A stretch of DNA of 64,000 nt, taken from Liolophura sinensis. Lineage: Eukaryota > Mollusca > Polyplacophora > Chitonida > Chitonidae. Each line of letters begins with the position of its first letter. Positions within the stretch are counted from its first letter, which is position 1. The translations under genes were made by a program, and so were the position numbers. Of the stretch, positions 3,455-60,560 are shown piece by piece. The notes under the pieces are model-generated. The model saw nothing but the letters and a program-made list of their open reading frames with translations, did no database searches and was not told the DNA's origin. The stretch is taken from contig NC_088296.1 of NCBI RefSeq assembly GCF_032854445.1, forward strand, positions 17,783,485 through 17,847,484, written 5' to 3'.

Positions 3455-4830
3455 CTCAACTATATTTCCAATGTATTCTGTTTAGAACTAAACGTGATAT
3501 ATATAAATGATTTGAACCCGTTTGCTGAAGTAATTTTGTGGAAAACTGATTGTTTGGTGCAATGTGATATTCACATATAGGCCTAAAGTTAATGGCGAGC
3601 TGCGGAAACCATTTTTGAGATGTGACAGAGTATAAATGTGTACAAACATACTGATGGGTTTACCTCCCCTGCACAGATCACGTACTCTTCTCAGAGCTAA
3701 GTATTTTCTATTTCAATCTGCTCAGTTTAACCAAGTTGTGAAGCCAGGTGGGATTTGTGTCCACAGGAAAGTTCTGTAAGACGATTATATGTAGTTTGGA
3801 TGGGAACGATCACTCAGATTAAGGAGTTGTCTTTACTTGATCATATTACCGACTGTCAGAAACAGCTTAATTGGTCTGGTCATCCTCAAATCGACACAAC
3901 GTAAATATACGTGAAAAGCCTTGTCTTATTGTAAATGGGACGTTTCCATTTATAGACTTTAACATCAGCCATGTCAGTCTGAGTGTGTGTGAAACGCTGT
4001 CGATATTTGCGTATAAACGAAAACGACTGATTTTTATTCAGGTTCATACTGTTTGATTGTGTCGATCTTGTCACTATGTATACAGGGCAATAGTGTTATT
4101 AATGTGAGGTTCTGAAGCTTTGATCTTGAAAGGCATTATGCGGCTATGCTGAAAGTCGATTACTGGCGGTGACGTGCCGTTTATGGCACACAAACTCCGA
4201 ATATGTTGGCTGTATATATCGCTGTTTGTTTACTTACAACGTTCGCCTGTCTCGTCCAAATACAAAAACTGTGATAGTACAAAAAAATCCTGTTAAGGGT
4301 ATAAGCGTTCTCCTTATCCATGTACGTCAGTCCGTCTGTTATATGATATCCTATATCAGTTGCTCATAGGGGCCTCCGTGCCCGTGGGTATTAGCACAGA
4401 ACGGCGCAATGACCATAAACCTCCCGGCAATGCGATCGCTGAGAGTTCAAGTCCAGCTCATGCTGGCTGCCTCTCCGGCCGTATGTTTCCTCCCACCATA
4501 ATGCTGACCGCCGTCGTATAAGTTAAGTATTCATGAAACAGCAATCAGATAAGTAAATATTGTTAGCGGTAAATTGTTATGACCGTTGATCTGTGAGCCA
4601 TCCGATCAGTTGCAGTTAAACCCTACTCTGTAAATTACGGCCATTGCGAAGGCCAACATTTTTAAGATTATGTACACATTCTTGAGTTCGGTGTAAAACA
4701 CCAGTAAAATAAATAAACAAAATCTATTGCTCATAGCTTCAAAGCTAAGGAATGTGCGTGTATGTATATGGTGCTAAAGGTAAACAGAATCTTAAAGTTC
4801 TGTAAGGATTTGCACACATTATCGTCAGAC
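3455..4830 (+). repeat. Tandem segmental duplication, copy 1
   Basis: Non-coding segment matching 4905-5970 in the same orientation, diverged but alignable over most of its length. Shared landmarks are a TTACCTCCCCTG block (3661 and 5110), a TTTTCTATTT-AAATCTG block (3705 and 5152), a TTGGTCTGGTC block (3871 and 5322), a TGAAAGGCATTATG block (4128 and 5587), and CGCTGTTTGTTTACTT (4220 and 5698). The spacing is constant at about 1.45 kb. This copy alone carries the SINE at 4370-4726. Confidence 0.75.
4370..4726 (+). mobile_element. tRNA-derived SINE with 10-bp target-site duplication
   Basis: SINE head from 4370, with body and tail to 4726, flanked by perfect direct repeats TTGCTCATAG at 4360-4369 and 4727-4736. 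The 3' end motif occurs twice (about 4530-4558 and 4678-4718), so about 120 bp of extra sequence or a second 3' end lies within the element. Confidence 0.8.
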
Positions 4831-4831
4831 A

Positions 4832-4832
<1 letters not shown>

Positions 4833-4898
<66 letters not shown>
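4833..4898. repeat. (TA)n microsatellite
   Basis: About 33 consecutive TA dinucleotides. They generate spurious Tyr-Ile repeat frames on the minus strand. Confidence 0.97.
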
Positions 4899-4900
<2 letters not shown>

Positions 4901-4904
4901 TGCT

Positions 4905-5970
4905 GTCTCCGTAAGGCTTTTTATTGTACAATGTTTAGACGCAAATCTACATACAGACATTAATGACTTGAACCAAACTGTTCCATTAATTTTAGGGAAA
5001 CGGGTATGTTTGATAAAATGTGGCATTCGCATATAAATTTAAAAGGGAACTCTGCTAACCATTGTGGGGTGTCATAGAGTGTAAATGTGTAAAAGCATAT
5101 TGAGGGAGTTACCTCCCCTGGTCAGATGACGTGTTTTTCTCGGAACCAACTATTTTCTATTTAAATCTGCGCAGTTTTATCAAGGAGTGAAGCACGGTGG
5201 GAACTGTGTCGACGGGTAAGTCCTGTATGATGGGGTACGTCTATGTTTATGTCGGGATGTTTCTATCAGGTGACGGAGTTGTCCTTACTCGATCGTGTGA
5301 CCGACGCTCAGACAACATTTAGTTGGTCTGGTCGTCCTCCAAATGGACACCAAGTCGGCGCACAACTGTAGTGTGAGGGGGGGGGGGGGGGGTGTCTTTG
5401 CATAGGCTCTACTCACGGCCTGTGTGTGAACCTCTGACACTGTCTATAACAAGTGGGAATGTTTTCCTCTCAAGGAAAACGACTGAATTAATTGGGTTCA
5501 TGTACATACTGTCTAATTATGTCGACCTTCTCACCATATCCAGAACGATAGTAGGTTATTAATGTATTTTTCTGAAGCTTTGACCTTGAAAGGCATTATG
5601 TAGGGTTTTGCTAAAGGTCGTTTGTTGACGGTGGTGTGTTGTCTGGGGTTGGGCCAACATACATGTAAACAACCAGAACAACTCGCGTGTATGGATCGCT
5701 GTTTGTTTACTTGCAACGTTCGCCTCTCTGCTCCAGATATAAAAACTGTAATATTCAAAAGATTCTAGTTAGGATATACATGCTCTCATATTCCAAGCGA
5801 GGCAGAAACAAATACCATTTTTGAAATATTTGGTTTGACCCAGACTTGAGTTCGATCTCTGATCTCCCGACTTCGAGGTGGGCTCGAACATAAGGAGTGT
5901 ATTACACTGTACCGGTATAAGTAAAGCGAATCTTAAAATTATGTACTGAATTGCAGACAGGGTTTTCAGT
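4905..5970 (+). repeat. Tandem segmental duplication, copy 2
   Basis: Second copy of the 3455-4830 segment, without the SINE. The match runs through the end of copy 1: 4770-4820 aligns with 5920-5965 around a GAATCTTAAA block. It contains a run of about 18 G at 5378-5395. Confidence 0.75.
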
Positions 5971-8322: not shown

Positions 8323-11300
8323 TGTATATATACGTACACCATTTGATCTGATGACGGGTATGAGCCAGGCCCAGGTACTGTCCGAAGCATCTAAGGCTTC
8401 ACCATCTCGTCCTGCTCAGGGCATCATTTGTGACGGCACGACTCTATTGGGGATTGAACCATGTATCTTTTGGTTTTGAGTGGACACTTACATGTACATC
8501 GCTGGACTAAAGGGAAATCACTTCCACCCCGGAGGTACATTGTAGACAGAGTTGTGTGGCGTTTATAGTTTACCATGTTACACATACATATATAACTTCT
8601 TAAACACACAATTCTAATGGTCTGGATATGGTAATAAAGGATTTTTATGTTTGGCAGAAAAACCAGGAACTTCACTTCCAGGAGGTAGAAAAGGCTTATT
8701 GTGCAGCCTTGGAATCTTTACAAGCCTGGAGACAGCAATCCATAGATGGCATAAAAACCCGATATTCACAGTGGTGTGTGGAGTGTAACGCCATACTTAA
8801 ACATTTCCAGCTACAGGCCCAGGAAATGGAGAGGATGGTACAAGCTTCAAAAGATTTCTTAGCGTCAGTGGACGTCGAGTTTTTACAAGTAAGTTAAACA
8901 TGCACAATCTCTAGCATTGGTTCAGCTGCCTTAACTTCAGATGTTACACATGACCCAGCCACCCTTAGAACCTGTGATAACGTGTTGCTGCCAGATTTAC
9001 TAAAGTTGTAGATCCTGAGTTCAACAGCTTTATTTTGCTTAGTGGTACCCTCCGGTCGCTGACCACTTTTCTACCCATAATAGAACCACTGTCCGATTAA
9101 AGCAAAAAAGTAGTAATATATAATGTCAAACTATATTGTATGCTGTTTTTCAAAAACAAGGTTTGTATGTAAACAGATCTTTGGGGAAAATTGCATTGTA
9201 TGAAACGTCTTGGAATTTATTAACCGAAATTTCGAGCTGATGTGGACTATGTAATAGTTCAGGGAATGGTCTAAATGTTTGTCGTCGTCATATCACTGAA
9301 AAATTGTTAAGTACGACGTTAAACCCCAATCATTCACTCACTGACTCCAAATGTTTGTGGTAAAAGCCAACTGTGACTGTGTACTTGGAGAGATAAGACA
9401 TTTCAATTATAACTATGTCCTTGTTACATGTTGATGTGCAAGTATAGCTACAGTATCTCAGTTTCGGTTATCATCTTTACATGATTTTATATGTGTGTTC
9501 AATTCTGTTTGTTGACAGGGTTCCACGAGCTTCACCAAGACGTATGTATAAATGTTTTATACCTATATAGGTTTGTTATACACGAGCACATGACTGCTGT
9601 CAGCAAATGTGCTTCTGTAACACTGTGTACCAGCACTGTAGTTGTCCAAAACATGACACAAGTGTAAAATATATCTAGTGTTCAAATTTACGCTTGTCCA
9701 GACATATCAGATCTCACCTACTAGGAATAGTACATGATGGCATTCTGATAACTGCGTGGTGCACAACATTACTACACGACTGTGTCTCTTTGTTTTCTCT
9801 CCTGTTCCCACAGAATTGGTGACCAGCTGAATGAGATAGGAGCAAATCTGGAGAGAGATGAGGTCAGCAAACAGAATCTTCAAGGTTTTGTACAACTTGA
9901 CCTTGTTTTGCCTAGACACGTGACGGTAAAAGAGACAGTGCAAGGAAGTCAGGACTTAGAAGCAGCAGTCGGTGGACAAATGTCACGCCCAAGTAGGTTT
10001 TTATATGTATTAAAGGTATAAAGCAGAGTGTGTCCAGATGACATAAACGACTGTAGGGTTTACATTAGTATGTGCACCGAAGACACAAACTAATCTGAGG
10101 TATGCAGTAGGGTGTGCCCAGATGACACAAACTACTGTGAGAGATAAAATGTGGTTGTGTAAAAAAAAAGAAATTACATTGCAGAGTTATATATGAGCAG
10201 CTGTTTAGTTGAAACATGACATATGGTAGTGTATCCCTCAATGTCCCTCGATGTTTACCGTAAGTGTACAAATCAGCAGGTGTAATGTTAAATCAGGACT
10301 GGTGTGTGTGTATTCTTTAGTGTCTGGGTGATATTTACTCCACGCACACAAATCGGCAGGAGTACTTTTAGAACAGGACACATAGTAGTGTACCCTTTGG
10401 TGTCTGTGTAATGTTTACCACATGTGTAGAAATCAACAAGTTCACTGCCAGAGCAGGCCAGATGGCAGTGTACCCGTCAGTACCTGGGTGATATATACAT
10501 CATGTGTACAAATTAGCAAGTGTAATGTAAGAACAGGACAGATGGCAGTGTACCCGTCAGTACCTGGGTGATATATACATCATGTGTACAAATTAGCAAG
10601 TGTAATGTTAGAACAGGACAGATGGCAGTGTACCCCTCAGTACCTGGGTGATATATACATCATGTGTACAAATTAGCAAGTGTAATGTTAGAACAGGACA
10701 GATGGCAGTGTACCCGTCAGTACCTGGGTGATATATACATCATGTGTACAAATTAGCAAGTGTAATGTTAGAACAGGACAGATGGCAGTGTACCCGTCAG
10801 TACCTGGGTGATATATACATCATGTGTACAAATTAGCAAGTGTAATGTTAGAACAGGACAGATGGCAGTGTACCCGTCAGTACCTGGGTGATATATACAT
10901 CATGTGTACAAATTAGCAAGTGTAACGTTAGAACAGGACAGATGGCAGTGTACCCCTCAGTACCTGGGTGATATATACATCATGTGTACAAATTAGCAAG
11001 TGTAATGTTAGAACAGGACAGATGGCAGTGTACCCGTCAGTACCTGGATGATATATACATCATGTGTACAAATTAGCAAGTGTAATGTTAGAACAGGATA
11101 GATGGCAGTGTACCCGTCAGTACCTGGATGATATATACATCATGTGTACAAATCAGCAAGTGTAATGTTAGAACAGGACAGATGGCAGTGTAAAACTCAG
11201 TACCTGGGTGATATATACATCATGTGTACAAATTAGCAAGTGTAATGTTAGAACAGGACAGATGGCAGTGTACCCCTCAGTGCCTGGGTGATATATACAT

Positions 11301-21690: not shown

Positions 21691-22985
21691 TGACGACAAA
21701 CGACGTCATATTGACATGGCCATTATGACGGAGATGACGCAGAAAGACGAAATCTGTTATGTCACACGGAATGAAGCTTGCCACCAAGCTTTCGTAAGAT
21801 TATAGAATATGGTGCAGAACAATCCTTTCTATGTTCACAAGGCTGTAGTCAGTCTACTTATCCCCATGTTTAAGAAATCTGGAAGCTGATATGGTTTTGG
21901 CACGAAAACATATAGCAGTCTGATCCAAACCTTACGGCAATGAGTAAACTGTTGGTCATCAAAAACAGGTTGATCGCCGTGAAAACCAGGTTAGAACAGA
22001 GATGGAGACGCTCTCAGCTAATCAAACCAGAAGTTGTTATCCATGCATTTGTAGTATGATTTACTGCCTTATAGTTACCAGCTTCAAAACGTCATTGAAA
22101 TATGTTAACGATTAGGTAAATACTAATGTGCCCGAGACTTCATTTTTGGCAAAAATCACTGCGGGCGAATATGCCCCATGGGTCACAAAGTAGCAATAAT
22201 AAATCTCATCAACTATCAGCATCGTGCAATAACCCACGATGTTCACACATAAAAATATTTGAGGAATGTGCAGGCTGGCGATTTTAACTATGAAGTTAAT
22301 GCCAAGGTTTGGAAGGTAACTTACCCTTGAAAAATTGGTACTACCTTTAATGAATTGATAAAGAGTGTATGTCGTTTGTAGAAGATACGTAAGTTGGAAA
22401 ATGTTACAAGTAACTGAATGTGATTGATTTAATATTGATACCAGGACCAACTGCTTGTTGAAGAAAGGGATACTATGTAATCAAACATCACAATACTTTA
22501 TTATCATTTGAAGGGTCCTTTTATGGCAGAAAATAAAAAAGGCAATTATATGGGCGAACAAAAGCAAATTAATCTAAGTCTAAATGTAAACTTAGACATG
22601 AAAAAGGTTTGAAAAGGAATATATCTTTTCTGGTGGACACGTTTGTCAGTGATTGATACTTCATATTTAACGACATTTCGTGATTAGCTCATAACACTGA
22701 GTACAAAATTATACTGACTGGTGGAAGACTGGAGGAAACTGAGAACCTGAGCACATAAAGCACTTAGATTGTTACAGATATTACATGATCACTTAAACAC
22801 AAATGACAATGTAACTTTATTTGTTTGTTACAATATTAATAAGCATTAAGACCATTGCCCAATTTTATGCTATGTACAATTTTTCTCCACATGTTAATAG
22901 CCTAGGTCAACCCCCAAAATGGAAAGTACATAAATCCGTTTGAGATCTATGTAGACATGAATGTAGAAAGTCTTTTATAAAGTCC
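21691..22985. other. Gene-free interval
   Basis: AT-rich sequence. The frame at 22112-22450 on the minus strand shows no domain. Nothing else was recognised. Confidence 0.45.
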
Positions 22986-22989
22986 TTAA

Positions 22990-25380
22990 TGAAGATACTG
23001 ATATATTTAGTAACAATATACTTAAAACTATGTCCACTGCGGCCAATAACTCTGCTCCAAAATCATCCGGAGTAGTTCATTCCAAGAAGCCGATACCGTG
23101 GAGGACGAATGAGTGTTCAGCAGCTATCAAAGAGCGCCTTTGCCGGAAGAACCGAGCACAACGTAATAGATTAATAGATGATATCATATTATACAAGAAA
23201 GCTAAAGCTATAGCACAGCGTAAAGTCAAGCGAACACAGAAGGAATACTGGCGGAAGTATTGTTCTAGTCTTAATGTCATGGCTACCATTAAATCTGTGT
23301 GGAATAAAGGTAATTCCATTAAAATTAAAACAACTAAAGGTAATATTTCCACAATTATATCTGATGGGGTAGAAAATGTGACCAGTGAGGACAAAGTTAA
23401 TATACTGGTTGATACGTTCTATTTTGTATTCTCTTCGGACAACTATAATCTAGATTTTGTCCCACATAAAAATGATCATGAAGACATGCACCCTTAGATA
23501 TAGCGTTTAATACCTTACTATTACTGACGACTTTAGCATTACAGGCCTGAATCAGTCTTTGTCTTTACCTGCGGATTCTTCCCTTGGGGAAGACGGCATT
23601 ATGTATTCAAAGATTACAAAGTTACCTGACCACTGTCTCAACACTTTACTTTTGTTGTATAATACTGTATGATCAAGCATGAAGTTAACGTCCACATGGA
23701 AGAGAGCCGTAGTCACTCCGGTCCCTAAACCTGGAAAAGATGATTCTCTCCCATCTTCACATCGGCCCATAGCTCTGACGTCATGCATCTGTAAAACTAT
23801 GGAAAGAATGATTAATTCCTGTCTAATATATTTCTTACCTAAAAATAATGTTCTGACCTCCGTACAGAGTGGATTCAGGTTTGACATGTGATAACACTCG
23901 AAACCGATATTCGTAATTGTTTTTCAGTTAAAGAGTATTTATTTGCTGGGGTACGGCCTGGAGGACGGGTGTGTTGATGAAACTGAAAATGTTAGGATGC
24001 ATCAAGGATTTTTATCTGATCGTTTAATTTAAGTTCGTGTTGGTCGGCATTTCTCTCATCTTCGTCCTGGAGAGAATCGGGTGCCACAGGGGAGTGTTTT
24101 GTCACCCGCTCTTTTTAATATAGCTGCTAATGATCTCCCGGAAGCTATACCTCCTAGCATTAAATGTTCATTGTTTGCTGATAATAAAGCTTTATGGATT
24201 CATTCTCGAAATATCAATGTTTGCAAAATATATATTCAGCAAGGAATAGATGCCATCATTGAATGAGGTGATAAATAGGTTCTTTCCGGTATCTTGGGGC
24301 AATACTCGATAAGCATTTAACTTGAAATACCAACATAGAACAAATAATTAATAAATCTCATCAAGTATTAAATATCATGAGAAGTGTATCTGGGAAATCC
24401 TGGAGGAGGGGGAGGGGAGCAGACAGATAATACATTCTTTTACTATATCGTTCCTTAATTCGTTCTCGACTTGAAAACTGCCGGGAAGCGCATGACTCTG
24501 CTTGTAAGACACTTAAGGGTGGGCTGGTTTCGATTCAGTGCGGTGCGGTGCGGATTTGTACCGGGTGTATACGATCGACGCCACTAAACGTCATGCGGGC
24601 TTTCTGTAAGGAGTGGCCCTTGTACATCCGTTAGATTCCCTCTCGTCCTTAGGTCGTTTGTTAATAAGTCTGCTGGTCTTCAATCTTCATGTTATGACTG
24701 TTCATATGATTTACAGGATTCTCATGCAGTGCCTTTCAGTTTAAGATCCAAACAAATTTCTTCTTTATTGCAGTGTAAGGATTTAAATCTTCAGTTATCT
24801 TTTGTACCTCACTTCCTCCTGTGGTAGATCAAGGATCAATTTTATTGTAATTGGTCAAAATATCTTCACGTGTTTACAGACGCTTCAAGATGCCCCGATA
24901 CCTGATTAGTGGATGCATCCTTCACCAAACCAGAGTTAAAGTATAATAAATCGTTTAGTTTATCTGATTTAATTTCAGTTTTTACAGCTGAACTGAGTGC
25001 CATTATATGTGCTTTAAATTTTCTGTTAGATTTAAAACCGGTCCGAGCTGTTATTTTTACAGATTCATTGTCTTCCATCACCAGTTGTACCAGGGAAACG
25101 TCATACAGTACAGTGCGAAATTTAGATGACTCACCTAAGAAGTATGTAAAAGGCGGTCAGGTGTAATTCTTAATGTAAACAATCCCTGTTTTAAAAAACT
25201 CTTTCTAACCAATGAGTCAGACAAGCGTTTCAGGGCATGAAAAGACTTCGTAAAAAATGTCAACTAAGTACATGAACAAGAGGATGGTTTCCAGCCTATA
25301 TCACGTGCTCTCCTCCATTTAGTAAAGGTAATGGCTGTGACGTTGTAGTTCAACGAGTGAATCTAAGCTGACACATCTAC
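22990..25380 (+). pseudogene. Dead non-LTR retrotransposon (LINE; RT plus RNase H)
   Basis: 5'-truncated LINE ORF2 remnant with several frameshifts and stops. A Lys/Arg-rich region before RT lies at 23030-23497. The RT fingers at 23679-23891 carry TWKRAVVTPVPKPGKDD and HRPIALTSCICK. The palm is at 24081-24266, with PQGSVLSPALFNI and LFADNKALW. The catalytic FADD of the family reads FADN here, so the second Asp is lost. An RNase H domain follows at 24868-25166 (FTDAS, FTAELSAI and FTDSLSS). The RNase H domain points to the I/Nimb/Ingi-like group of LINEs. The endonuclease is not seen. The element is inactive. Confidence 0.88.
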
Positions 25381-30300: not shown

Positions 30301-30508
30301 CAGTGTTACATCTCCGATTTCATTTCCTTCACGGAACGCGTAATATGCAAGGCTTTGACGCTTCATATTCATCAACAATGCAAACTGATCATCCACGAAT
30401 ATAGAAATATCTTAGAAAAAACAGTGCCCTAACAAGCATTCGAGGACCAGTGTTTTTTGAAAGGAGATGAGGTTTATTGCACAAGGGCCACATCAGTTGT
30501 ACTCTTAC

Positions 30509-30690
30509 CTCAGTGATTCGATAAAAAGGATTCATCCCTTGACGCAGTCTTCTGTACCAGCGGTGTCCCTTGACAGTGGCGATGACTGCATACAAAATCA
30601 CCGCGGCGCAAATTACCGCCATTACAATCACGCCAGTCAGAAGACCATTCGATGACCGTTGATTTTTAGAGTTAGTAGGTCTATCTACCG
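30509..30690 (-). CDS. Receptor exon 11: transmembrane helix and NPFY tail
   Basis: 182 nt, entering in phase 1 and leaving in phase 0 at a gtaaga donor. A polar linker (TVDRPTNSKNQRSSN) is followed by about 25 hydrophobic residues, a basic stop-transfer segment (KGHRWYRRLR), and MNPFYRITE. If the donor were not used, the frame would run into intron for 40 codons to a stop at 30389. A further exon below 30509 is therefore expected but was not identified. Confidence 0.8.
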
Positions 30691-33600
30691 CTACAACAAA
30701 GGATATACAGTTTGCAATTACATGTTTTAGGAAGCGCAGAAACACGAATGTTTTCCTAACACTGTAAAGCCAAATTGTTAAGTTCAAAGCAAACTTCCTT
30801 AATGATTACATTCAGATTATGTTTCTTTATTTATTTTTTATTTAATTGCTGTTTAAAACCATATGTAAGATCTAGTTTTGCGTATATGATAAAGGTCAGT
30901 CTAATGGGCGAGCAATGCCCTGGGTAAAAAGCATTGACCTTTGGCATTTGTTTGACCAAGGGTAGTATTTAACGAAGTAGTGATTGCCATTTCTTACAAA
31001 TATAATACATGTAAAGCTGGCACTCGTCACAGTCAACTGCAATGCTCTTCTCTGCTGTACGCGATCGCTGTCCTTCACCGTGTCTTATGTGTACATGCAT
31101 TTTTCACGTCGAGTGGCATGTTCTTCATACCTGTCCTTGTGAAGTCTACGTGTTGTCTGTCCAATATGTTTAATAAAATGCGTAAGTTAAGGCAAGGGGA
31201 GTTTCTATACTTGTGGTTGTTTAAATATACTGTGCTTATTAGAAATCACTTTTATTGCTGCGTTTTTTTTTACACTTATTTAACGAAATTTGACAGCTAC
31301 AAGAGGACAGGTCATGGTTGATTGCTGTATTTCAGTTAGAATTTACCATGCGCATTTGGAATTGCTATTTGTCTAATGTAGGCGGTAAACAGCTGGCGGT
31401 GATGTAGTAGTCGACGGTGCTTGCCTTTAAATGTCTGGGACGTGCTAGTTGGGGATTCACAGAGGGAGTGTATAGACTTCCAGCCTTCACTGTTTTGTTT
31501 ACACTTGCTCATTGCTTGCGCAGCCAAGGCCTCGTTGAACACCAACTGCATTGCAGGTATACGGTACGCATGTCGGTATATCGCACGGCTGAAAATTCAC
31601 AGGGTTTGTCAAAGGTCCACACCTATGTACACTGTAACCTACACCATGGGTGAAACGTCTTTCTCCGCCAGTTGTATACAAGTTTAGAATCGTCATACAA
31701 AGGTTGATACTTATATATGATATTACGTTGTTCTATCTTTTCGCCTTTCATCTCTGTGAAAACTAAGGAAAAAAAAAACCCATCTGACTCGTAAATCGAC
31801 ATCTTGGTTCCGAGTTAGGCCTACAGGCGATATCACGTTCGTTTTCCATTTCACCGGCCTCAAATATTTAACAGAACGTGATCATATCTTCGAGTAGTCA
31901 AACTTACTTTCTTGGCAGATGTCTCCTTTATATCCGGCAGCGCAGGCGCTTTCATCACACGTTCCGTTGATATGGTTACAAGAGAAAACGTTTTTACAGT
32001 GACATTCGTTCTTACATTTATCTCCGAAACGGCCGGTCGCACATTCTAAAACAAGACAATGATATACAAGTACGTGGAAAAATAATGTGCCATTTGTGCA
32101 AAAGAGAAAATTGACATCGTTCTCAACGAACCAGAGATTCGTCGTTCTCATCAAATCAGACATTCTTTGTTCTCACCAAAGTAGACATTCATTGTTCTCA
32201 GGAAATCAGACATTCTTTGTTCTCACCAAAGTAGACATTCATCGTTCTCATCAAACCAGACATTCATCACAAACAGTGACTTGAACATCATAATTATTAT
32301 ATAATTATGCAACATTTTAATGCTTGGATATTAGTTAGCACAATCTCTTTGTTATATTTGTTTTCTGGCTTCGCTCTGAGAAGATAAAATGAAACACAAA
32401 TGATGCCATAGCACCCAAATTCACGTGTGGTCACGTGCGCATGCGACTGTCTGTGTGTATGTTATCTGTTACTATAATTTTCTGACTAAGTATTCCTAAA
32501 TGGTCAAACCTTCTTGGCAGTTATCTCCCTTGTATCCAGCAGCGCACCCATATTCATCGCATGTTCCGTTGGCATGGTTACACGAGGTAGCGTTCTTACA
32601 GTGACAGAAGAACTGGCATTTTTCTCCAAACCGACCGGTTTCACATGCTAATGAAAAAAAAAGTGTACAAAAAATATAAACCTGGGAAAATTTTCCACAA
32701 TGTTCTAAAGAATCGTTTCCCGTGTGCGTCGTCAATATTACAAATTCAGTTTGTTGCAGCACTCTGATCATTGACTCATAGGCTATTTATCTACATACTC
32801 CTCACATCGCATGCGCCGTTCATTACGTTTGCTTTACATCACTGCCAAATTTTCAACAGAAATCCTGCACTACCTCTGAGTGACTGTGCTCATTTTGATG
32901 GGGCAGGAATTGATGTCAGAAAGCACAAAAACTCTCTTTCTCTCTCAACTCTTTCTTCTAATAATGCTTGATACACATGTACATTCTCTTTATCTAAATC
33001 TCACAAAGGTGCACACGGACACATTAAATAATTTTATTTTAGAGTGTTGATTAAATGTACACGTGCGGACATCAGTAATGATGTTCAAACAAGCCCATGT
33101 TTGTCGAGCAATCTCCTAAGTCCAAGCTTCTCTACTGGTCTTCATGGTGACAGTGATGTATAGTGAGCTCAGCGACACAGGTGGTAAAAGAAGTATGACT
33201 TCGCTTTTGCTTTGTCCCCAATATCTGTGTTCAAACGCTTCGATCTTCGAATTTTTGCAAAAGTTTTGGATATAGAGACTCATGACTCATAGTGTCACAT
33301 GAACAGGTGAGACAGATCTGTATCCATGTCAGCCTCCATTGAGTCTTGTCTGTCAGCAGAGAACACAGATCTCCATGGTGAGAACACAGCGAACGACAGA
33401 TCCAGAGTCTAGCCTCCTTATGCTACACATTTACAAGACTCCCACCGTCCCGGCCGCCAACCCAATGAATGAGAGCCCCAAGTGAGTCCGGCCTACACAT
33501 GGCACAACCCGGATAACCTGGCTTACAACTCATCGTATTACAGCCTTAAATGAGTTCGGCCCACACATGCGACAAGAATCTAGAAATCCCGGTTGACAAA

Positions 33601-36600
33601 CCAGTATGTGACAGCCTTAAATTAGTGTGACCTGCACATGCCACAAGAGAACCCTGACATCCCGGCTTACATCCCATTATGTCACAGTCCACGTCAAACG
33701 CGACTTACCTCTATCACAAGATGGCTGTTGCTATTCCGCTTCACACCTCAGTATATTACAGTCTACAACAAATTCGAGGTGTCCCTTGATGTCCGGCTTC
33801 ACGTCCAAGTGTGTCACAGTCTGCATCAAACATGACTTCCCTCTATCACAAGATGACCCTTGGTATCCCGTTTAACAGCCCAGTGTGTCACAGTCCACAT
33901 CAAATGTGACCTACCTCTGTCACAAGATGACCCTTGTTATCCCGCTTAACAGCCCAGTGTGTCACAGTCCACATCAAATGTGACCTACCTCTATCACAAG
34001 ATGACCCTTGGTATCCCGCTTAACAGGCCAGTGTGTCACAGTCCACATCAAATGTGACTTCCCTCTATCACAAGATGCCCCCTTGTATCTCGCCTAATAG
34101 CCCAGTGTGTCACTGTCCATATTAAATGTGACCTACCTCTATCATAAAATGACCCTTGGTATCTCGCTTAACAGCCCAGTGTGTCACTGTCCACATCAAA
34201 TGTGACTTACCTCTATCACAAGATGCCCCCTGGTATCTCGCCTAATAGCCCAGTGTGTCACTGTCCATATTAAATGTGACCTACCTCTATCATAAAATGA
34301 CCCGTGGTATCTCGCTTAACAGCCCAGTGTGTCACAGTCCACATCAAATGTAACTTACCTTGATCACAAGAGGACCGTTGGTATCCAGCTTAACAAACCA
34401 ATGTGTCACAGTCCATATCAGATGGGACTACCCTCTATCATAAAATGACCCTTGGTATCTTGCTTAACAGCCCAGTGTGTCACAGTCCACATCAAATGTG
34501 ACTTACCTCGATCACAAGATGACCCTTGGTACCCCGCTTCACAGACCAGTGTGTCACAGCCCACATCAAATGTGACTTACCTCGATCACAAGATGACCCT
34601 TGGTACCCCGCTTTACAGCCCAGTGTGTCACAGCCCACATCAAATGTGACTTACCTCTATCACAAGAACGCCCTTGATATCCCGGTTCACAGCCAAGTGT
34701 GTCACAGGTTCCGTCAACTTTGTTACAAGACTCCTGGTTCTTGCAGTGGCAAATTTTCTGGCAATTCACATGGTACCTTCCTGTATCGCATTCTGGAACA
34801 TTCAGGGCGAAGGAGTTTTCGTCTACACATAATAAAATTTACTTGATTTCCACATACTACAATCGTGTTTAAGTGAAAAAAAAAAGAACAAAGAGAAGAA
34901 AGTAAAAATGATATGATTTACCTATTTTATGGTCGTTCAGAACGGCCTTTTACGTAGTCTTTTGATGTCGGTCATAATTCATATTGCAATTCTGGAGAAC
35001 TGTTTTGTGTAAGTGCAGAGAGGCTGAAATTATTTAAAAGCATTTGGAGAATTGTTGTGTGTGAGTGGAGAGAAATAATATAACTTCTCAAGGATGAATA
35101 AGGGATAAAAGTGTTTTTTCTTCTCAACTTCCTGAGAAGGAGTGTTTTGTGTGTATTTGTGGCATTCGTTACATGGAATTGATTTTTTACAACAGAATGA
35201 AAATAAAGTCGGACGGCGATTCCGAGGGTCGGCTCTATACGCCGTGCAAATATCAATGATAACTGCTCTAAAAAGCAAAAATTAGAGACGAAAAAATACT
35301 GGATTTGAACCCGGGACTTCCAGGTAACGCATACTTTAGGTCCAATACTAAGACTTCTTCTCACAGCCGAGAGCGAAAGACAGAAAGAAAGCGCTGTTGC
35401 AAGTTTAACGCCCATCCCCACAATGAACTCCTGTAATTAGTTTGATGCAGTCTGGCACGAAGCTCCCGTGTTAAGTACATGAGAGACTGTCAAGCAGTTT
35501 GAAAACATTTGCTGCTAATTTCATGAAAAACTATACAACACAGGTGAAAACAATGAGCAATTGGAAATCAGTGGCCTTAAATGCAGCAGAATAATCGTTG
35601 ATTGTCAACGCCAATTTTTCAAGCTTTATGTACCTATGGTCAGAGTGAACAAGAATATAAATTTTTTTTAGGAAAATCAGTTCAATAGTTGTTGAGAAAA
35701 AAGGCTTTTAATTTCGCAATGGTCCTCAAACCACGCGGCCAATTTACAGAGGGCCGATCTACTAATTACCATATTTTTGTGAGACTTCGAGTTAAGAATA
35801 AACATACCGATCGAAGAAAGCTTATATGTGCAATATAATTAAGAATGTCACTTTCATTTCGGTCTGCGTCGAGTATTTTATTGAAACGATAAAAATCCCC
35901 AGACTGGTTAATTTTTGTCCATGTCTGTATTATGCCACAGTAAATAAACAGTAAGAATAAAAACAAGACAAATACCTTGCTGGCAGTTGTCTCCTGTGTA
36001 TCCTGCGTAACAACCACGCCCGCAATGCCCGGTGGTTCTGTTGCAATCTGAATGACTCGGATAACAGTGACATTTACCCTGGCATCCCTCTCCAAACTCA
36101 CCATAATAGCACTCTGCAAAAGAATAGATTGACTGAATCCCCTGTCGCCTGTACCTGACGAAGCTTCTGACGTCAGCTTGTAATGACTCGGTAGCGGACA
36201 AACTTTGTGAAGTCACCCCTACTGGTGCAAGCACCTAACAAACCTTCTGACATCACCTCGACCGGTGTCGGTATCAGACAAGCTTGGTGACGTCACCTGT
36301 GCTGATCCAGACACCTGGAAAACCAGCTGACCTCACACTTTCAGGTCCGGGTAGCACACAAACTTTTTAATGTCACCTCTCCTGGTGCAGGTACATAGCA
36401 AAGCCGCTGATGGCATCTCGTCCAACAACAGTCGCTGTACGCTTTAATTAAATTGCGCATGCGGAGCAAATATAAAATAAATGTATATACATAGGGCCTA
36501 TACTCTCAAGTCAGTAGAATAACCATCCTTCATTGACTGAATCATACATATACTGGCGCAAAACACTTTTCTGCTTTTAATGAACGTAAGTACATGTTGC

Positions 36601-42600: not shown

Positions 42601-45600
42601 GGTACTCTGATCGCTGTTGGAGACCTACGTGGCTTAGTGGAAGGTTTGACATCAACCTGCGGATGGTTCGGGGGTTCCCCGGGCGCCGCCCACATTCCTC
42701 CCACCGAAATGCTGGTTCCCATTGTTCAAGTAAAATACTGTACTCTTGGGTACAATGTAAAACACCAATGAAATGTATTAGCATATAGTAAAGGTTTACT
42801 ACGATACCAATGTGCAGGCAAATCGTCACGACAAAGGCGGAATTGCGTTGTGAGTTCAAGTCTGTCTCATGCTGACTCCTCCGGCCGTGGTTAAGAATGT
42901 TTTCCTGCCACCTGCGGATGGTTGTGGGATTCTACCAGGCTCTGCCCGGTTTCCTTTCAACCTGGCGCCGTCGTATAAGTGAAATATTCATATTACAGCG
43001 TTGGACATCAAATAAATAAATAAATAAATAAATAAACAATAGACTACACAGATTCGGCTCAAAGGTGGAAGAGATTCGCATTGAAGATCTGATGTACTGT
43101 ACCTCCGTTATATATCCTCATGGAATAGATAGTAGTACGAAAGTTCCACCTTTTGATCCACACTGTTAGATACGGGTTTGCTTCTTCCCGAGAACGAAAT
43201 ACCGTGGACAAGTTCCCGTCAAAAGCCATGGAGTCTATGTTGTCTATGTGAAATTCGCTGCTGGAATCCACATTCCATTGCAAAAAAGCAATGTTTTCTG
43301 TAGAACAAGAATAAAAAATGTCACATTTTAGTTAATAGTGAATAGTTAATGAGGGCTCGTGTTATTTTGTGCTACGAAATTTTATTCATTTTTGCTTTGC
43401 GTAAACCACCGACTTTGCAAGTTACTTACGATTGATTTCATTTATTTGATTGGTGTTTTACGCCGCACTAAAGAATATTTCACTTTTTCGACGGCGACCA
43501 GCATTATGGTGGGAGGAAACCGGGCAGTGCCAGGGGGAAACCCACGACCATCCACAGGTTGTTGCCAGACCTTCCCACTTACGGCCGGAGAGGAAGACAG
43601 CATGAGCTGGACTCCAACTCATTGCGACTGCATTGGTGAGAGACTGCATGTGTTCAATAGTTGCAGAATTGCATGCAACAGGTGCACTCTCGGAAATGAA
43701 GATCTGTCATATGTTCTCTGTGAAGCTTTAGGTTTCAGTGAAGAACCTTTAGGGCTACAATGCTCAAGCAGTTTCTTTGACAGCGATGTCGAACACTGTA
43801 CATGTACTTCGCACCAGGACCACCAGGTGATAAAACAGACGGTTTTCTGGGTCAGAATATAAGCTGTGTTTATTTATTGATTTATTTTCATTCTGTCAGA
43901 GAATTTACAACCATCCAACTACACCACGTTCACAGTTATTAATATTCGTGTCACCGTATAAGGTGCAATCTTAAATTGAAATGTCATAAATCCAACATTT
44001 TCTCAGTGGTGAAGGGGGTGGAGAAGCGTTTATACTGCCAAATTAACACTGGGTAAAGTCATTCAAATTTAACAATTTACAAAATGGTACTAAAATGTTG
44101 TAATCTAACTTTATCGTAACGCAGTTTAAACATATTTTGGTATATTTTGTTTCAAAACATTTGGAGATTCTGAACACGTATTTATAGCAAATGAGTTTAA
44201 TGACAGAGCTGTTTTAGCTCACACCTGACTTGAACGCATTTTTAATATTAATTTCGATAATTTAATATGGTGACAAACAACTCTTTTTAAGCAGTTTACG
44301 AACACGTTTCTCAATAGGAATTTCTTAGGTATCACGAAAAAATAAGTTGAACAGCGTTCATTTGTAAAGGTCGTACACATGGTTAACATGCACCAAAACA
44401 TGACTACATGATTCTTGTTTTCTTGATGGACGCGGCTGTTTGTAGAGTTGTATGTACATAGCTTTCAGCAATGCCTTTACATTAATACCTTCTCCCCAAC
44501 GGTGTGATTTCTTTTATAGGAAAGGCTAACACTATTTGTATAATCATCATCATCGCACTGTAAATATTTCTTTGGGGCGAAGAGCCTTAACGCCATAGAA
44601 GACACTAACGTTAAGTATATGGAAGATAGCAAACCGTTAAACTCAATGCACAGTGACAGTTTGACTTATTTTATTAGAATCTGTTCAATCTTGTAAAATA
44701 CATTGAAAGTTTCATTTTTCTAAGATGGCCTTTTCTAAGATGAAAACGTTCATAGAGTGTTAACTATGCTGTTGTTCTGTGCTACACCGAGGCGAAGGAG
44801 GCCTAGACCGGGCTATACGTCAAATATCGCCATAGTGGCATATCTGCCGCATTGGGTGTTTAGGAAGGAGGTTTTGCCGATCTGGGTGTATGAGACACCC
44901 AATAAGAGTTCTGGTCAGAGGGCAATTGACCGGACAGCAAAGAAAGTACTCTGAGGGATAATAAATATACAGCAGGCTTCGTGCAGTCTCTAGACGACAT
45001 AATTCCCGACATGTCCGATCACATCTTTGTCACGTAGGCCTACTCTCCAAAAAATAATGTGTTAAGATTCCTTGATCCCAGAATGTATTCTATTATTGCG
45101 CCAGAGTAGTCTGTTAAACATAGTATTGATTTTCTATTAATTCAACATGAAGACTGCTTTACACCGACATGATATTATGCTGAACATGACAAAGTCTATG
45201 GCAAACATAATGTAATAACATAAAGAGTGCATGCTCGCATCACCAAGACAACAGACCTTTCTGTCACAAGAAACAGATTGTTATATCGTGAGTTTATTTA
45301 TTTATTTATTTATTCATTTGATTGGTATTTTACGCCGTAATCAAGAAATATTTCACTAATACGAACGGCGGCCAGTGTTATGGAGGGTGGAAACCGGGCA
45401 CAGCCCGGGGGAAACCCTCTACCATCCGCAGGTTGCTGACAGAACTTACGGCCGGCCGGAGAGGAAGCCAGCATGAGGTGGACTTGAACTCACAGCGACC
45501 GCTGGGTCATTACGCTGTGCTAGCGCGCTAACCAACTCAGCCACGAAAGCCCCTATTTCTTGTGTATACAGTAAAATAGGTGTTGTCCCTTATTAAGAAG

Positions 45601-48600: not shown

Positions 48601-50260
48601 CGTCTGTCACACTGTCGTCGCTGCTCTGGTCTTACTCTCTATGCTGCACGTCTGTCACACAGTCGTCGGTGCTCTGGCTTTACTCTCTATGCTGTAAGTC
48701 TATCACACTGTCGTCGCTGTTCTGGCTTTACTCTCTATACTGTTCGTCTATCACACTGTCGTCGCTGCTGTAGTTTTACTCTCCATGCTGTACGTCTATC
48801 ACATTGTCGTCACTGCTGTGGTTTTACTCTCCATGCTGTACGTCTATCACACAGTCGTCGCTGCTGTGGTTTTACTCTCTCTGCTGTACGTCTATCACAC
48901 TGTCGTCGCTGCTGTGGTTTTGCTCTCTATGCTGCACGTCTATCACACTGTCTTCGCTGCTGTTGTGGTTTTACTCTCTATACTGTACGTCTATCACACT
49001 GTCTTCGCTGCTGTGGTTTTACTCTCTCTACTGTACGTCAATCACACTGTCAACGCTGCTGTGGTTTTACTCTCTCTGCTGTACATCTATAACACTGTCT
49101 TCGCTGCTGTGGTTTTACTCTCTGTGTTGTGCGTCCTAATGGCATTATTTTGTAAAGTATTTCTCAGTGGTAAAATTCAGCCAAATATTGCGTGTACATG
49201 TATTCATTGTAAAACGTACTTCAGATAACTCACCTACAAAATATCCGTTGTGCTGTTGTCTGTCTCTAATGTGAGGGGTTGGGGTGGGGGGTGGGGGGTG
49301 GGGGTGGGGGATCCCTGACTCAGTCGGTAAGGGCGCTAGCGCAGCGTAAAGACCCGGCAGCCTCTCACCAATGCGGTCGCTGTGAGTTTAAGTCCAGCTC
49401 ATGCTGGCTTCCTCTCCGGCCATAAGTGGGAAGGTCTGCCGGCAAACTGCGGATGGTCGTGGGTTTCCACCGGGGTGTGCCCGGTTTCCACCCACGATAA
49501 TTCTGGCCACCGTCGTATAAGTAAAATATTCTTGAGTACGGTGTAAAACACCAATCAAATAAATAAATAAATAAATAAATCTAATGTGAGGAGAATCCAC
49601 ATAAAAAAATCCTCTTCTTCAACTATAAACTTATCTGACTAGCGAGTCAACTGAGTTCAATAAGGCATTTCATAATACAAAAACGCTTCGTTAAGCAGAT
49701 CAGCTGGGTAAAGGAACACTAGGATGAGTTCCGTTCTACATTACGTGACCCAATTTAGCAAGTACAGTAGATTAAGGGAAAATTTGACACAGTCTGTTTA
49801 TTTTCTAGCATTTGTCAGTTACGCCACTTAAGGCACTGCCTGCTAATAGACATGTAGTCTGAGTCAGATGGCAAATATGGTTCGAAATATATTGTTTCTG
49901 AAGTGTTATCTAACTATCACCGCCAAGAGAGTGATGTTTTTGCCTGATGGATAGAGCATTCAGATCTGCTGATCTGTGCCATAGTTCCGTCAATTCTCCT
50001 TATCTCAAGATTAGTGGCTGTACATGCAGCTATGCTCATTACATCCATGTGCTTATTTGAACAGTTCCAAACAAAGCCCGACTATCTCTGTACTTGATCT
50101 GAGAATTATCCGTGACTTACGACAATACATTTTCAATTTGATGTCATGCCTAAAATCTCGACAGTCTTTTCGAAAGCTAAGAAAGTTACTTACCAGAAAT
50201 ATCCAATGGCATGATGAAGACGACAAAAATTGATATCAGCAGACATAATATTTTCTCCAT
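30509..50260 (-). CDS. EGF/fucolectin-domain type I membrane receptor (Draper/MEGF10-like), 3' end not found
   Basis: Eleven coding exons on the minus strand: 50260-50194, 46504-46364, 43297-43103, 41320-41114, 38690-38553, 37921-37784, 36113-35976, 34792-34655, 32647-32510, 32045-31908 and 30690-30509. Intron phases agree at every junction (phase 1 throughout), giving 540 codons. Order: signal peptide (1 to about 22), EGF-like 1 (23-69), fucolectin/FTP domain (70-203), EGF-like 2-7 (204-479), linker, transmembrane helix (about 495-519), and a basic cytoplasmic segment with NPFY at 533-536. The NPxY motif in a multi-EGF single-pass protein resembles CED-1/Draper/MEGF10 engulfment receptors, which recruit PTB adaptors. 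Ligand and role are inferred, not shown. The last exon ends at a good donor (gtaaga), so more tail is expected. A receptor tyrosine phosphatase with its catalytic domains outside the window is an alternative. Confidence 0.87.
31908..38690 (-). CDS. Receptor exons 5-10: six EGF-like domains on identical 138-nt exons
   Basis: Exons 38690-38553, 37921-37784, 36113-35976, 34792-34655, 32647-32510 and 32045-31908. Each is exactly 138 nt, phase 1 at both ends, and codes one 46-residue EGF-like domain with eight Cys. The common pattern is a C-HCKN or C-NC core, then a GTCD or GDC word, then GY/GF-x-G-x-x-C. NGT or NAT sequons in several domains suggest N-glycosylation. Domains 3, 5, 6 and 7 are the most alike; 2 and 4 are divergent. 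The symmetrical phase lets any one exon be skipped or duplicated without breaking the frame. Confidence 0.9.
32100..32275. repeat. Tandem repeat of about 28 bp in the intron after EGF 6
   Basis: Alternating units TTCTCACCAAAGTAGACATT and TTCTCATCAAATCAGACATT, about six copies. Confidence 0.85.
32771..33440. other. Intron interval with no feature
   Basis: Between EGF exons 34655 and 32647; no repeat or exon recognised. Confidence 0.45.
33440..34700 (-). repeat. 74-bp array derived from the EGF-5 exon/intron boundary
   Basis: About 14-16 tandem units of exactly 74 bp in the younger part (CAGTGTGTCAC at 33881, 33955, 34029, 34103, 34177, 34251 and so on). Each unit copies, in minus sense, the last part of the EGF-5 exon plus its 5' splice site and the start of the intron. 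Units close to the exon (34500-34655) are nearly identical to it, while those below 33700 are much diverged. Five copies keep a perfect gtaagt after the exon-like end (about 33704, 34205, 34353, 34501 and 34575), others read gtaggt, and at least two have lost the GT. Confidence 0.9.
34861..35975. other. Intron interval
   Basis: Intron between the EGF-4 and EGF-5 exons. A two-copy repeat of about 59 bp occurs at 34985-35085 (GGAGAACTGTTTTGTGT and GGAGAATTGTTGTGTGT). A tRNA B-box-like word (GGTTCAAATCC, minus strand) is at 35307-35317, without a convincing A box or cloverleaf. Confidence 0.4.
36140..36425. repeat. Degenerate tandem repeat of about 56 bp
   Basis: Four to five imperfect units with CTTGGTGACGTCACCT, TGGTGCAGGTAC and CAGACAAGCTT-like words, just upstream (minus sense) of the EGF-4 exon. 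Confidence 0.75.
36430..37780. other. Intron interval with no feature
   Basis: Intron between the EGF-3 and EGF-4 exons. No repeat or exon recognised; short plus-strand frames are not supported. Confidence 0.4.
38700..40415. other. Intron interval with no feature
   Basis: Part of the intron between the FTP domain and EGF 2. AT-rich, with no exon or repeat seen apart from the SINE-like element that follows. Confidence 0.4.
40420..40712 (+). mobile_element. Second tRNA-derived SINE family, near full length
   Basis: Starts CCCCTATGGCCCAGTTGTTA, with an A-box-like region and a B-box-like GTGAGATCCAGGG. It then has a unique body including CTTGGCGTTAAAC and CCACTGGTTGACCCGTATCA, and ends in CATTCACTCACTCTCTCG. 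Its 3' type matches fragments at 9281-9346 and 41484-41555. Confidence 0.65.
41114..43297 (-). CDS. Receptor exons 3-4: fucolectin / F5-8C-like (FTP) domain
   Basis: Exons 43297-43103 (195 nt) and 41320-41114 (207 nt) together code a galactose-binding-fold domain. It opens with ENIAFLQWNVDSS, then AFDGNLSTVF, a YLTVWIKR strand and MRIYNG. The second half has ISGFEIYVSETSDF, SKLCYRD, INCTQPLNGLYVKL and ends AIREMEIY. These match the strand order of fucolectin/tachylectin-4/pentraxin-1 domains. The fucose motif of F-type lectins (H-x24-R-x-D-x4-R/K) is not present, so sugar binding is doubtful. The first half exon lies inside an inverted repeat. Confidence 0.82.
41484..41555 (+). mobile_element. 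3' fragment of the second SINE family
   Basis: Contains CGTCATATGACTGAAGAATT and GTACGACGTTACGCCCAAAG, ending in CATTCATTCATG; compare 9281-9346. Confidence 0.6.
42085..42484. repeat. Inverted repeat, left arm (includes a SINE)
   Basis: Reverse complement of 43435-43835 at high identity over about 390 bp. It comprises a unique segment (42090-42265) and a headless SINE (42276-42484). The unique segment read on the minus strand resembles an exon but has a 1-nt length difference and in-frame stops relative to the right arm. Confidence 0.85.
42276..42484 (+). mobile_element. SINE within the left inverted-repeat arm
   Basis: Major SINE family lacking the tRNA-like 5' end; begins near ACTCACCAATGCAGTCGCTG and ends in AAATAAATAAATTG. 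Confidence 0.85.
42607..42780 (+). mobile_element. SINE, degenerate copy
   Basis: Recognisable by CATCAACCTGCGGATGGTTC, CCTCCCACCGAAATGCTGG and ATGTAAAACACCAATGAAAT. Confidence 0.75.
42820..43037 (+). mobile_element. SINE, degenerate copy ending in (AAAT)n
   Basis: Has GAGTTCAAGTCTGTCTCATG, CACCTGCGGATGGTTGTGGG, GCCGTCGTATAAGTGAAATA and a seven-unit AAAT tail. Third SINE in 750 bp, in intron 3 next to the FTP exon. Confidence 0.8.
43435..43650 (-). mobile_element. SINE within the right inverted-repeat arm
   Basis: Major SINE in minus orientation, missing the tRNA-like head at the same point as its partner at 42276-42484. This supports inverted duplication of a pre-existing SINE with its flank. 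Confidence 0.85.
43435..43835. repeat. Inverted repeat, right arm (SINE plus exon-like Cys-rich segment)
   Basis: The SINE on the minus strand (43435-43650) is followed by a plus-strand open segment with an acceptor-like ttgcag at 43663-43668 and a donor-like cag/gtgata near 43828. The open segment codes a Cys-rich peptide including CNRCTLGNEDLSYVLCEALG. The VLCEALGF part recalls the VVCRQLGF core of SRCR domains, but the match is short. The left arm is a broken copy. Confidence 0.8.
43840..45285. other. Intron interval
   Basis: Within receptor intron 2. A plus-strand frame at 44757-44954 (62 residues after an RRRRPRPGY start) is unrecognised and probably not a gene. A MITE-like fragment at about 45045-45150 has AATGTGTTAAGATTCC and AATGTATTCTATTATTG words related to 25378-25520. 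Confidence 0.4.
45290..45556 (-). mobile_element. SINE, near full length
   Basis: Left end is an AAAT-type tail followed by ATTTGATTGGTATTTTACGC. Right end carries the tRNA-like head ending at 45553 (GCTAACCAACTCAGCCACG in this orientation). Confidence 0.88.
45557..46360. other. Intron interval with no feature
   Basis: No exon or repeat recognised. Confidence 0.4.
46364..46504 (-). CDS. Receptor exon 2: EGF-like domain 1
   Basis: 141 nt, phase 1 to phase 1. It has eight Cys with a C-R-C core and ends GWSGPTCQR, a laminin/MEGF-type EGF pattern. It differs from the six later EGF exons in length (141 against 138 nt) and in the spacing between Cys 4 and 5, so it belongs to a separate lineage of modules. 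Confidence 0.85.
46505..47320. other. Intron interval with no feature
   Basis: AT-rich stretch of receptor intron 1; overlapping frames at 47010-47245 on both strands lack support. Confidence 0.4.
47324..47541. mobile_element. MITE-like non-autonomous DNA transposon
   Basis: About 218 bp with imperfect terminal inverted repeats of about 40 bp. The left end runs CACTAAAAAAAAACTAATCT then GTTAAAATTAACAGAA. The right end is the mirror of that: TTCTGTTTAATTTAACACAT then TCATTTTTTGCG. A possible TA-containing target is not certain. Related to 25378-25520. Confidence 0.65.
47745..48360 (+). repeat. Dispersed repeat R4, copy 2 (interrupted by a SINE)
   Basis: Matches 17200-17530 and 52410-52705. 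The repeat is split by the SINE at 47966-48213 and continues with GACCGTATTTCATCGGTTAC directly into the 48-bp array. Confidence 0.75.
47966..48213 (+). mobile_element. SINE inserted into repeat R4
   Basis: Degenerate head (GGTTAGCGTGTCATGCTGCA), body GATGATCGTGGGATTCCACC and 3' end GTATAAAACGCCAATCAATT. The R4 copies at 17.2 and 52.4 kb lack it. Confidence 0.85.
48300..49140 (+). repeat. 48-bp minisatellite (about 17 units)
   Basis: Exact 48-bp period (CTCTATGCTG at 48541, 48589 and 48637). The unit is GTCGTCGCTGCTGTGGTTTT, ACTCTCTATGCTGTACGTCT and ATCACACT in sequence. Because 48 is a multiple of three, two plus-strand frames stay open and encode 16-residue hydrophobic repeats that imitate membrane segments. 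The array starts inside dispersed repeat R4. Confidence 0.95.
49277..49310 (+). other. G-quadruplex-forming motif
   Basis: Six G-runs of four to six, each separated by one or two T, on the plus strand. In the receptor gene, transcribed from the minus strand, this is the non-template strand's complement, so the pre-mRNA would be C-rich here. Confidence 0.8.
49277..49579 (+). mobile_element. SINE with expanded 5' G-tract and target-site duplication
   Basis: Flanked by a 12-bp perfect duplication TCTAATGTGAGG at 49265-49276 and 49580-49591. The G-rich tract 49277-49310 lies inside the element, before the tRNA-like head. The body and (AAAT)n tail are complete. Confidence 0.88.
49592..50190. other. 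Intron 1 of the receptor gene, no feature
   Basis: No repeat or exon recognised between the SINE and the signal-peptide exon. Confidence 0.4.
50194..50260 (-). CDS. Receptor exon 1: start codon and signal peptide
   Basis: ATG at 50260-50258, followed by 22 codons (MEK, then Leu/Ile/Val/Phe-rich) and a phase-1 gtaagt donor. A hydrophobic core after a Lys is typical of a secretory signal. The exon is too short for most ORF callers but joins in frame to the EGF exon at 46504. The promoter should lie just above 50260; no core element was recognised. Confidence 0.82.
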
Positions 50261-51517: not shown

Positions 51518-51777
51518 TGTCTGTGGCTCAGTTAGTTAGCGCGTTAGTGCAGCGTAATGACCCAGGAGCCTCTCTCCGATGCGCTCGCTGTGAGTTCAAG
51601 TCCAGCTCATGCTGGCTTCCTCTCCGGCCGTACGTGGGAAGGTCTGCCAGCAGCCTGCGGGTGGTCATGGGTTTTCCCCGGGCTCGTCAAGGTTTTCTCC
51701 CACCATAATGCTGGCCGCCGTCGTATAAGTGAAATATTCGTGAGTGCGGCGTAAAACACCAATCAAATAAATAAATC
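51518..51777 (+). mobile_element. SINE, full-length
   Basis: One of the best preserved copies: head TGTGGCTCAGTTAGTTAGCG (A box), GTTCAAGTCC (B box), body to AAAACACCAATCAAATAAAT. Open frames at 51502-51754 are within the SINE. Confidence 0.93.
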
Positions 51778-60110: not shown

Positions 60111-60560
60111 AGTGCAGGTCACTGAACTACACGTTTTTATCTAAGATACAATTGATGAGCTGCCATCGTACACGATTTGGATACTGATTGATTTCTTTCG
60201 GGGGGCACCCGTGGCTCAGTTGGTTAGCGCTCTAGCACAGCGTAATGACCCAGGAGTCTCTCACCAACGCGATCGCTGTGTGTTCAAGTCCAGCTCATGC
60301 TGGCTTCCTCTCCGACCGTAAGTGGGAAGGTTTTTCAGTAACCTGCGGATGGTCGTGAGTTTCCCCTGGGCTTTGCCCGGTTTCCTCCCAGCATAATGCT
60401 GGCCGTCGTCGTATAAGTGAAATATTCTTGATTACGGCGTAAAACACCAATCAAATAAATAAATAAATAAATATTTATTTCGCCTATATACTCGACCAGT
60501 TGTTTTAAGGATCCACCCTTAATTTGTGCCATTAAGGCCATTGTTCAACAAACTGGATGA
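60111..60560 (+). repeat. Satellite flank duplicate A (contains SINE)
   Basis: The sequences 60111-60199 and 60474-60560 together match 61006-61165 (a GCACTGACTTGCACATTTTT-like start, then CCACCCTT and CAACAAA words). They are interrupted only by the SINE. Confidence 0.75.
60200..60473 (+). mobile_element. SINE, full-length, inserted into a duplicated flank
   Basis: Intact head CCCGTGGCTCAGTTGGTTAG, B box GTTCAAGTCC and (AAAT)4 tail. The flanks ATTTCTTTCG and ATTTATTTCG look like a one-mismatch target duplication. The paralogous flank at about 61075-61095 lacks the element. Confidence 0.92.

Follow-up and report, generated by a model that had tools for sequence, protein, structure and literature searches.

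In the 64,000-nt stretch of the Liolophura sinensis genome analysed here (the window; contig NC_088296.1, positions 17,783,485 to 17,847,484), a gene with several EGF domains carries a minisatellite across the 3' end of one EGF exon (exon A) and the start of the intron behind it. Each 74-bp unit repeats the exon end, its 5' splice site and the first intron bases, and a row of extra splice donors follows the real one. Six paralogues on one contig were found to have this array, each behind its exon A: the window gene, L009, L010, L011, L012 and L013. It is probably a passive intronic minisatellite of the type called "mirage" in amphioxus, exchanged between paralogues, with the extra donors as a by-product. 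Coordinates are window positions; array and gene lie on the minus strand (Table 1).

The tandem-repeat call covered 33783–34707, with a period of 74, 12.5 copies including the exon's own, 86% matches and 0% indels. The unit consists of 52 bp of exon end and 22 bp of intron start, i.e., it spans the exon–intron boundary and contains the donor, as the initial annotation had described. That annotation had also proposed a ladder of decoy donors, at least five with gtaagt and others with gtaggt. The ladder is present as sequence: downstream of the true donor we located five GTAAGT (34580, 34506, 34358, 34210 and 33708) and four GTAGGT motifs (34284, 34136, 33988 and 33914). In units 1–11, 8/11 had GT at the donor position. 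The GTAAGT at 33708 is the one remaining in a decayed tail, which has the same ancestry as the units and ends at ~33453. The annotated splice pair, a donor at 34655 and an acceptor at 32647, was confirmed by a GT at 34654–34653 and by the next EGF exon (exon B), which continues in phase from 32647. As acceptor of exon A the paralogues suggest the CAG at 34794–34793; an alternative TAG upstream, at 34824–34823, likewise keeps the frame.

Compared with the exon unit without gaps, no 74-mer outside 33300–34800 was more than 50% identical, on either strand of the whole window. A 30-bp donor core, searched in the 609-Mb genome with up to three mismatches, gave at least 39 matches; the 39 listed all lay within the six homologous arrays on the one contig, counting the real exon ends as part of them. 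The reversed pattern, used as control, gave none among the matches listed.

The copies had been annotated as nearly identical next to the exon and progressively decayed away from it. We saw no such trend. Identity to the exon unit at steps 1–12 was 0.88, 0.86, 0.77, 0.78, 0.80, 0.82, 0.80, 0.80, 0.86, 0.86, 0.82 and 0.59, with a Spearman rho against distance of 0.05 (p 0.88) for units 1–11 and −0.20 (p 0.54) for units 1–12. For the 22-bp intron part alone, the values were −0.42 (p 0.20) and −0.55 (p 0.06), respectively. In its exon-derived part, the nearest unit was only 83% identical to the exon, and decay was confined to the far end, from unit 12 onward. Neighbouring units among units 1–11 differed by 4–23%, with units 1 and 2 being 96% identical.

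Besides several EGF domains the gene probably encodes a transmembrane segment, and we assign it to an EGF-receptor-like family. Pfam and PDB named the domain only weakly. The Pfam match, to Stabilin EGF (E 2.3e-4), did not reach the cut-off. In PDB, the best match was an EGF-like-domain protein (E 9.7e-12), followed by the angiopoietin-1 receptor. The number of near-full array units spread from 2 to 12 among the paralogues: 12 in the window gene, 8 in L009, 8 in L010, 6 in L011, 3 in L012 and 2 in L013. The L010 gene was broken by stops and frameshifts and had kept its array, with a mean unit likeness of 0.838 versus 0.847 in the window gene. In L037, a related gene 91–93% identical to L009, exon A and array were both missing within the 8 kb examined. 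Sister exons (A') in L009, L011, L013 (two) and L037 had 3' ends homologous to exon A and no array. Of 36 EGF exons, counted without the broken ones of L010, five touched a tandem array, and all five were exon A (window gene, L009, L011, L012 and L013). Two further repeats were seen at these loci. In L012 a 73-bp unit derived from the array's decayed tail was repeated twelve times (4682–5556 of that stretch); Tandem Repeats Finder listed it there alone among the five paralogue stretches. In the broken L010 gene, a 137 bp × 2 duplication (8575–8847) likewise spanned an exon–intron boundary, taking in the end of the exon for the putative transmembrane segment and the donor CAG/GTAAGA behind it.

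For the comparison of units, 20 of 65 unit hits were removed for having more than 8 gaps. The remaining 45 were six real exon ends (unit 0) and 39 near-full array units, to which the window contributed units 1–11 and one tail unit. In a tree of these sequences, 36/39 array units formed one group across loci that excluded the exon ends (support 0.78), and WIN_1142, L010_570 and L013_273 were placed among the exon ends. A stop (32 TAA, 2 TAG) stood in 34/39 array units at a codon reading GAA or GAG in all six exon ends. The grouping and the common stop codon point to one old array family and not to repeated growth at each exon; separate expansion at each locus, from the exon there, was not favoured. 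The origin from an exon–intron boundary, claimed in the initial annotation for the window array, is supported in this form, as that of a single family across six loci.

The genes fall into two old clades, window/L012 and L009/L011/L013/L010. Between clades, fourfold sites were identical in 25/53, 29/55 and 30/53 cases (three pairs), and array units had a mean identity of 0.776–0.874 (eight locus pairs). In four cross-clade comparisons, BLASTN aligned EGF exons, the region of the putative transmembrane segment and the array together with exon A, the last at 80% over 822 bp for the window gene versus L009. The sole alignable intron piece had 86 bp (L012 versus L009) and lay at non-matching positions. 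Exon A itself was 0.68–0.73 identical between clades in its first 90 nt, outside the unit, and 0.78–0.82 in its last part, inside the unit. Within clades, array divergence was similar to intron divergence. Because the array units were far more alike between clades than fourfold sites or introns, we infer conversion. Ectopic conversion between paralogue arrays would fit best and is our preferred cause, with selection as the alternative; inheritance from the common ancestor at a neutral rate does not fit the array.

Conservation of the donors was what drift gives. GT was retained in 32/39 near-full array units at the six loci, approximately as predicted from mean column conservation. The mean match to the consensus was 0.90 for exon-derived columns, 0.86 for the donor 9-mer and 0.945 for the remaining intron columns, and the T at +2 ranked 63rd of 74 columns. 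Column conservation in the 39 array units gave no sign of a donor-specific constraint. With GT kept at this level and the +2 T in one of the less conserved columns, there is no indication that decoys were selected for.

The first 74-nt extension of exon A was open in 5/5 intact genes; L010 was excluded from the frame analysis for its broken exons, and its offsets were also shifted by a small indel. In the window gene this extension throws exon B out of frame, at the cost of its EGF cysteines. At +86 nt, at the same place in 5/5 intact genes, a stop precedes the donors of the second and all later extensions. Three added units, expected in the initial annotation to keep the frame, therefore do not rescue it. 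Among the donors read in the window (0 to 3 added units), only the first enters exon B in frame and without a stop. Being the only protein-compatible one, it must serve the functional mRNA. It would be the sole route to receptor protein and is presumably the only donor used; products of the later donors would be frameshifted or prematurely stopped, and nonsense-mediated decay would be expected for them. Pairing was scored against the 5' end sequence of U1. The GT donor paired at least as well as the true donor in 5/12 array units of the window gene and in 8/8 near-full units of L009, six of these better, which would leave the cell with a genuine choice of donors. Ratchet sites for recursive splicing were rejected: by eye, each GT was preceded by CTTGTGATAGAG or a variant, and there was no pyrimidine tract.

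In the history that we favour as probable, a 74-bp segment across the 3' end of the EGF exon and its donor was duplicated, as the composition of the units shows, and expanded, probably by unequal exchange, in a chiton EGF-receptor-like family. Arrays would then have been exchanged among paralogues of the same chromosome. Ectopic gene conversion is the probable route, and the exon end and its donor may have been transferred with the array. The extra donors would have been carried along passively, with no function required. Several points weigh against this history. Conversion is argued from levels of identity and not from mapped tracts, and the support in the unit tree is weak. Selection could likewise account for the low divergence of the arrays between clades. 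For exon B, an exon with no array, identity between clades was also 0.78–0.80, so that the contrast within exon A says little in favour of a transfer of the exon end. Exclusive use of the first donor is itself a deduction from reading frames. Passivity is not guaranteed, since six downstream donors of L009 are predicted to be stronger than the true one, and in human 6-16 downstream repeat donors are reported as used (PMC4526556).

The ladder might instead serve regulated unproductive splicing, sending a share of the pre-mRNA into isoforms with a frameshift or a stop, with array length setting the share and tuning receptor output. This is unlikely, although the downstream donors do lead to a frameshift or premature stop in every intact gene, many pair well with U1, and the array is present in both clades where the other intron sequence is essentially unalignable. 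SRSF1 and hnRNP A1 are also reported to shift the choice between competing donors (PMC5585400). The lack of special conservation in the donor columns speaks against it, as do the array retained in the broken L010 and the close paralogue L037 without one. A further reading, quite unlikely in our view, makes the array a selected dosage device: its unproductive donors would titrate functional mRNA against mRNA bound for decay, and the ladder would have been kept alike in at least five intact receptor genes as their other intron sequence became too divergent to align. A role of the array DNA or RNA outside splicing (enhancer, RNA structure, U1 docking) could explain the low cross-clade divergence, 0.13–0.22 for arrays versus 0.43–0.53 for fourfold sites in three pairs. 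A possible six-pair stem, TGTGAT / GTCACA, with the donor in its loop (34645–34664 in the window, same columns in each unit), was complete in 31/45 units, and the L009 array RNA folded with z −2.49, 0/20 shuffles being as good. Against these stand the window array, folding no better than shuffles (z −0.31), seven two-unit stretches with z from +0.89 to −1.83, and the lack of compensatory change in the stem (pairing 0.94 versus 0.937 with columns shuffled). RNA structure was rejected as main cause on these grounds, the L009 value notwithstanding. Array divergence within clades is also close to that of introns. Selection for such a role seems rather improbable.

The initial annotation saw in the ladder a generator of isoforms, with distal donors appending coding units to the protein. 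The open first extension agrees with this, yet the frameshift and the loss of cysteines it causes, together with the stop in every further extension, refute in-frame isoforms and leave the idea with hardly any probability; only a second, frame-restoring event could rescue it. An assembly artefact is equally hard to credit. Tandem repeats are prone to collapse and expansion, and this assembly has a mitochondrial contig with several copies of the mitochondrial genome, but the neighbouring units differ from each other, the array recurs at six loci, and with ~0.9 kb it falls well within the length of the HiFi reads, for which a mean of 8,347 bp is given (PMC11068029). That publication names the chiton Liolophura japonica, a species since renamed L. 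sinensis (PMC12441733).

No described system of this kind was known to the initial annotation, but amphioxus mirages and the human 6-16/IFI6 minisatellite are of the same kind. Mirages are tandem repeats across exon–intron boundaries, found in amphioxus globin, Adh3, troponin C and PGBD5 genes and reported not to disturb splicing (PMC3087553, PMC3902484). As described there, they share with the chiton array the minisatellite-like duplication across a boundary, at 5' or 3' exon edges, and the AG/GT signals in many units. The chiton case differs in its mollusc host, its eleven full units plus tail, the single array family in six paralogues, and the apparent exchange between clades. Splicing of the amphioxus globin mirages was checked by RT-PCR, according to these accounts; that of the chiton gene is predicted from sequence.

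Turri, Cuin and Porter (1995) reportedly described a human 6-16 minisatellite with multiple splice donors. In this gene (IFI6, G1P3) the minisatellite is described as supplying multiple donors, with transcripts using downstream repeat units (PMC4526556). The row of donors is shared; the extra donors of 6-16 yield different protein isoforms, whereas every extra donor in the chiton breaks the frame. The repeat unit of the human gene is short, with 12 bp versus 74 bp in the chiton. Boundary repeats that can alter splicing are also reported from recently duplicated human families in segmental duplications, where transcripts support new introns (PMC2812944); the chiton intron, in contrast, is older than the array. 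The Rogers model has introns gained by tandem duplication of AGGT segments (as cited in PMC3087553), with a potato RdRp case (PMC4974935), and shares with the array tandem copies carrying AG/GT signals. Such a gain was rejected here: the array-less A' exons already have a donor at the same position, and there is no new intron. Among the matches listed from the open-access literature, no boundary-spanning minisatellite of a mollusc or chiton was found; for the intronic 27-bp minisatellite of abalone and for conotoxin introns, the accounts describe nothing across an exon edge. The chiton array is a new, probably passive case of an already described kind; what sets it apart is that paralogues have likely exchanged it. 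Neither the novelty nor the isoforms seen in the initial annotation stand as grounds for interest; the test of donor choice is what remains.

Tandem arrays with a period of 20 or more made up ~19% of 180 kb on contig C2 (18 sampled 10-kb stretches, L019–L036), the share per stretch being 0 to 70%. Arrays are abundant on this contig, so it is no surprise that, as a rare by-product, one of them lies across the edge of an exon. A strong donor was present in 0/60 arrays of these stretches (shuffle mean 0.24). Among 56 arrays of the window and the five paralogue stretches, the strict donor pattern occurred in 3 and the relaxed one in 6, all of the 74-bp family. A general association of tandem arrays with donors was rejected on these counts.

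Other repeats were noted in the window. A dispersed element whose reading frame is conserved (LIGVLRRTQEYFTYTTAASIMVGGNRA...) gave 20 tblastn pieces in the 64 kb. At 22967–24266, on the plus strand, ORFs resembled, by eye, a broken LINE-type reverse transcriptase. Elsewhere in the assembly, contig C99 (L014–L018) had seven cox1 copies ~15.5 kb apart, and an eighth cox1 was on contig C632. C99 is a multi-copy mitochondrial genome contig, probably an assembly concatemer. The order of the mitochondrial genes is the ancestral molluscan one.

Table 1 Features of the window discussed in the text (window positions).
Feature	Position	Strand	Remarks
Exon A (EGF domain)	34655..34792	−	138 nt, phase 1 to phase 1, ends ...CDR/G; exon A starts aligned in five loci
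Productive donor GT, GAG/GTAAGT	34653..34654	−	last exon base 34655
Unit 0	34633..34706	−	real exon end 34706–34655 and first 22 intron bases 34654–34633
Units 1–11	33819..34632	−	eleven exact 74-bp periods, indel-free
Truncated unit 12 and decayed older units	33453..33818	−	unit 12 from 33818 to ~33760; spacing of older units shifted
Exon B (next EGF exon)	32510..32647	−	phase 1; in-phase continuation from 32647
Exon C (EGF)	31909..32046	−	
ORF with putative transmembrane exon	30389..30805	−	hydrophobic stretch GVIVMAVICAAVILYAVIA; putatively of the same gene
Dispersed element, copy	43446–43616		among others
Dispersed element, copy	49391–49558		among others
Dispersed element, copy	1883–2050		among others
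Dispersed element, copy	60287–60454		among others
Dispersed element, copy	51599–51766		among others

With this array, minisatellites across exon–intron boundaries are extended beyond lancelets and human to a mollusc. Its paralogues, with 2 to 12 near-full units, offer a natural series for the choice of the spliceosome among near-identical donors, including a gene with seemingly better downstream donors (L009) and a close relative without array. If the array were a dosage device, it would be reset by gain or loss of units or by copying between paralogues. If conversion is right, the array would also serve to carry copies of splice donors from gene to gene.

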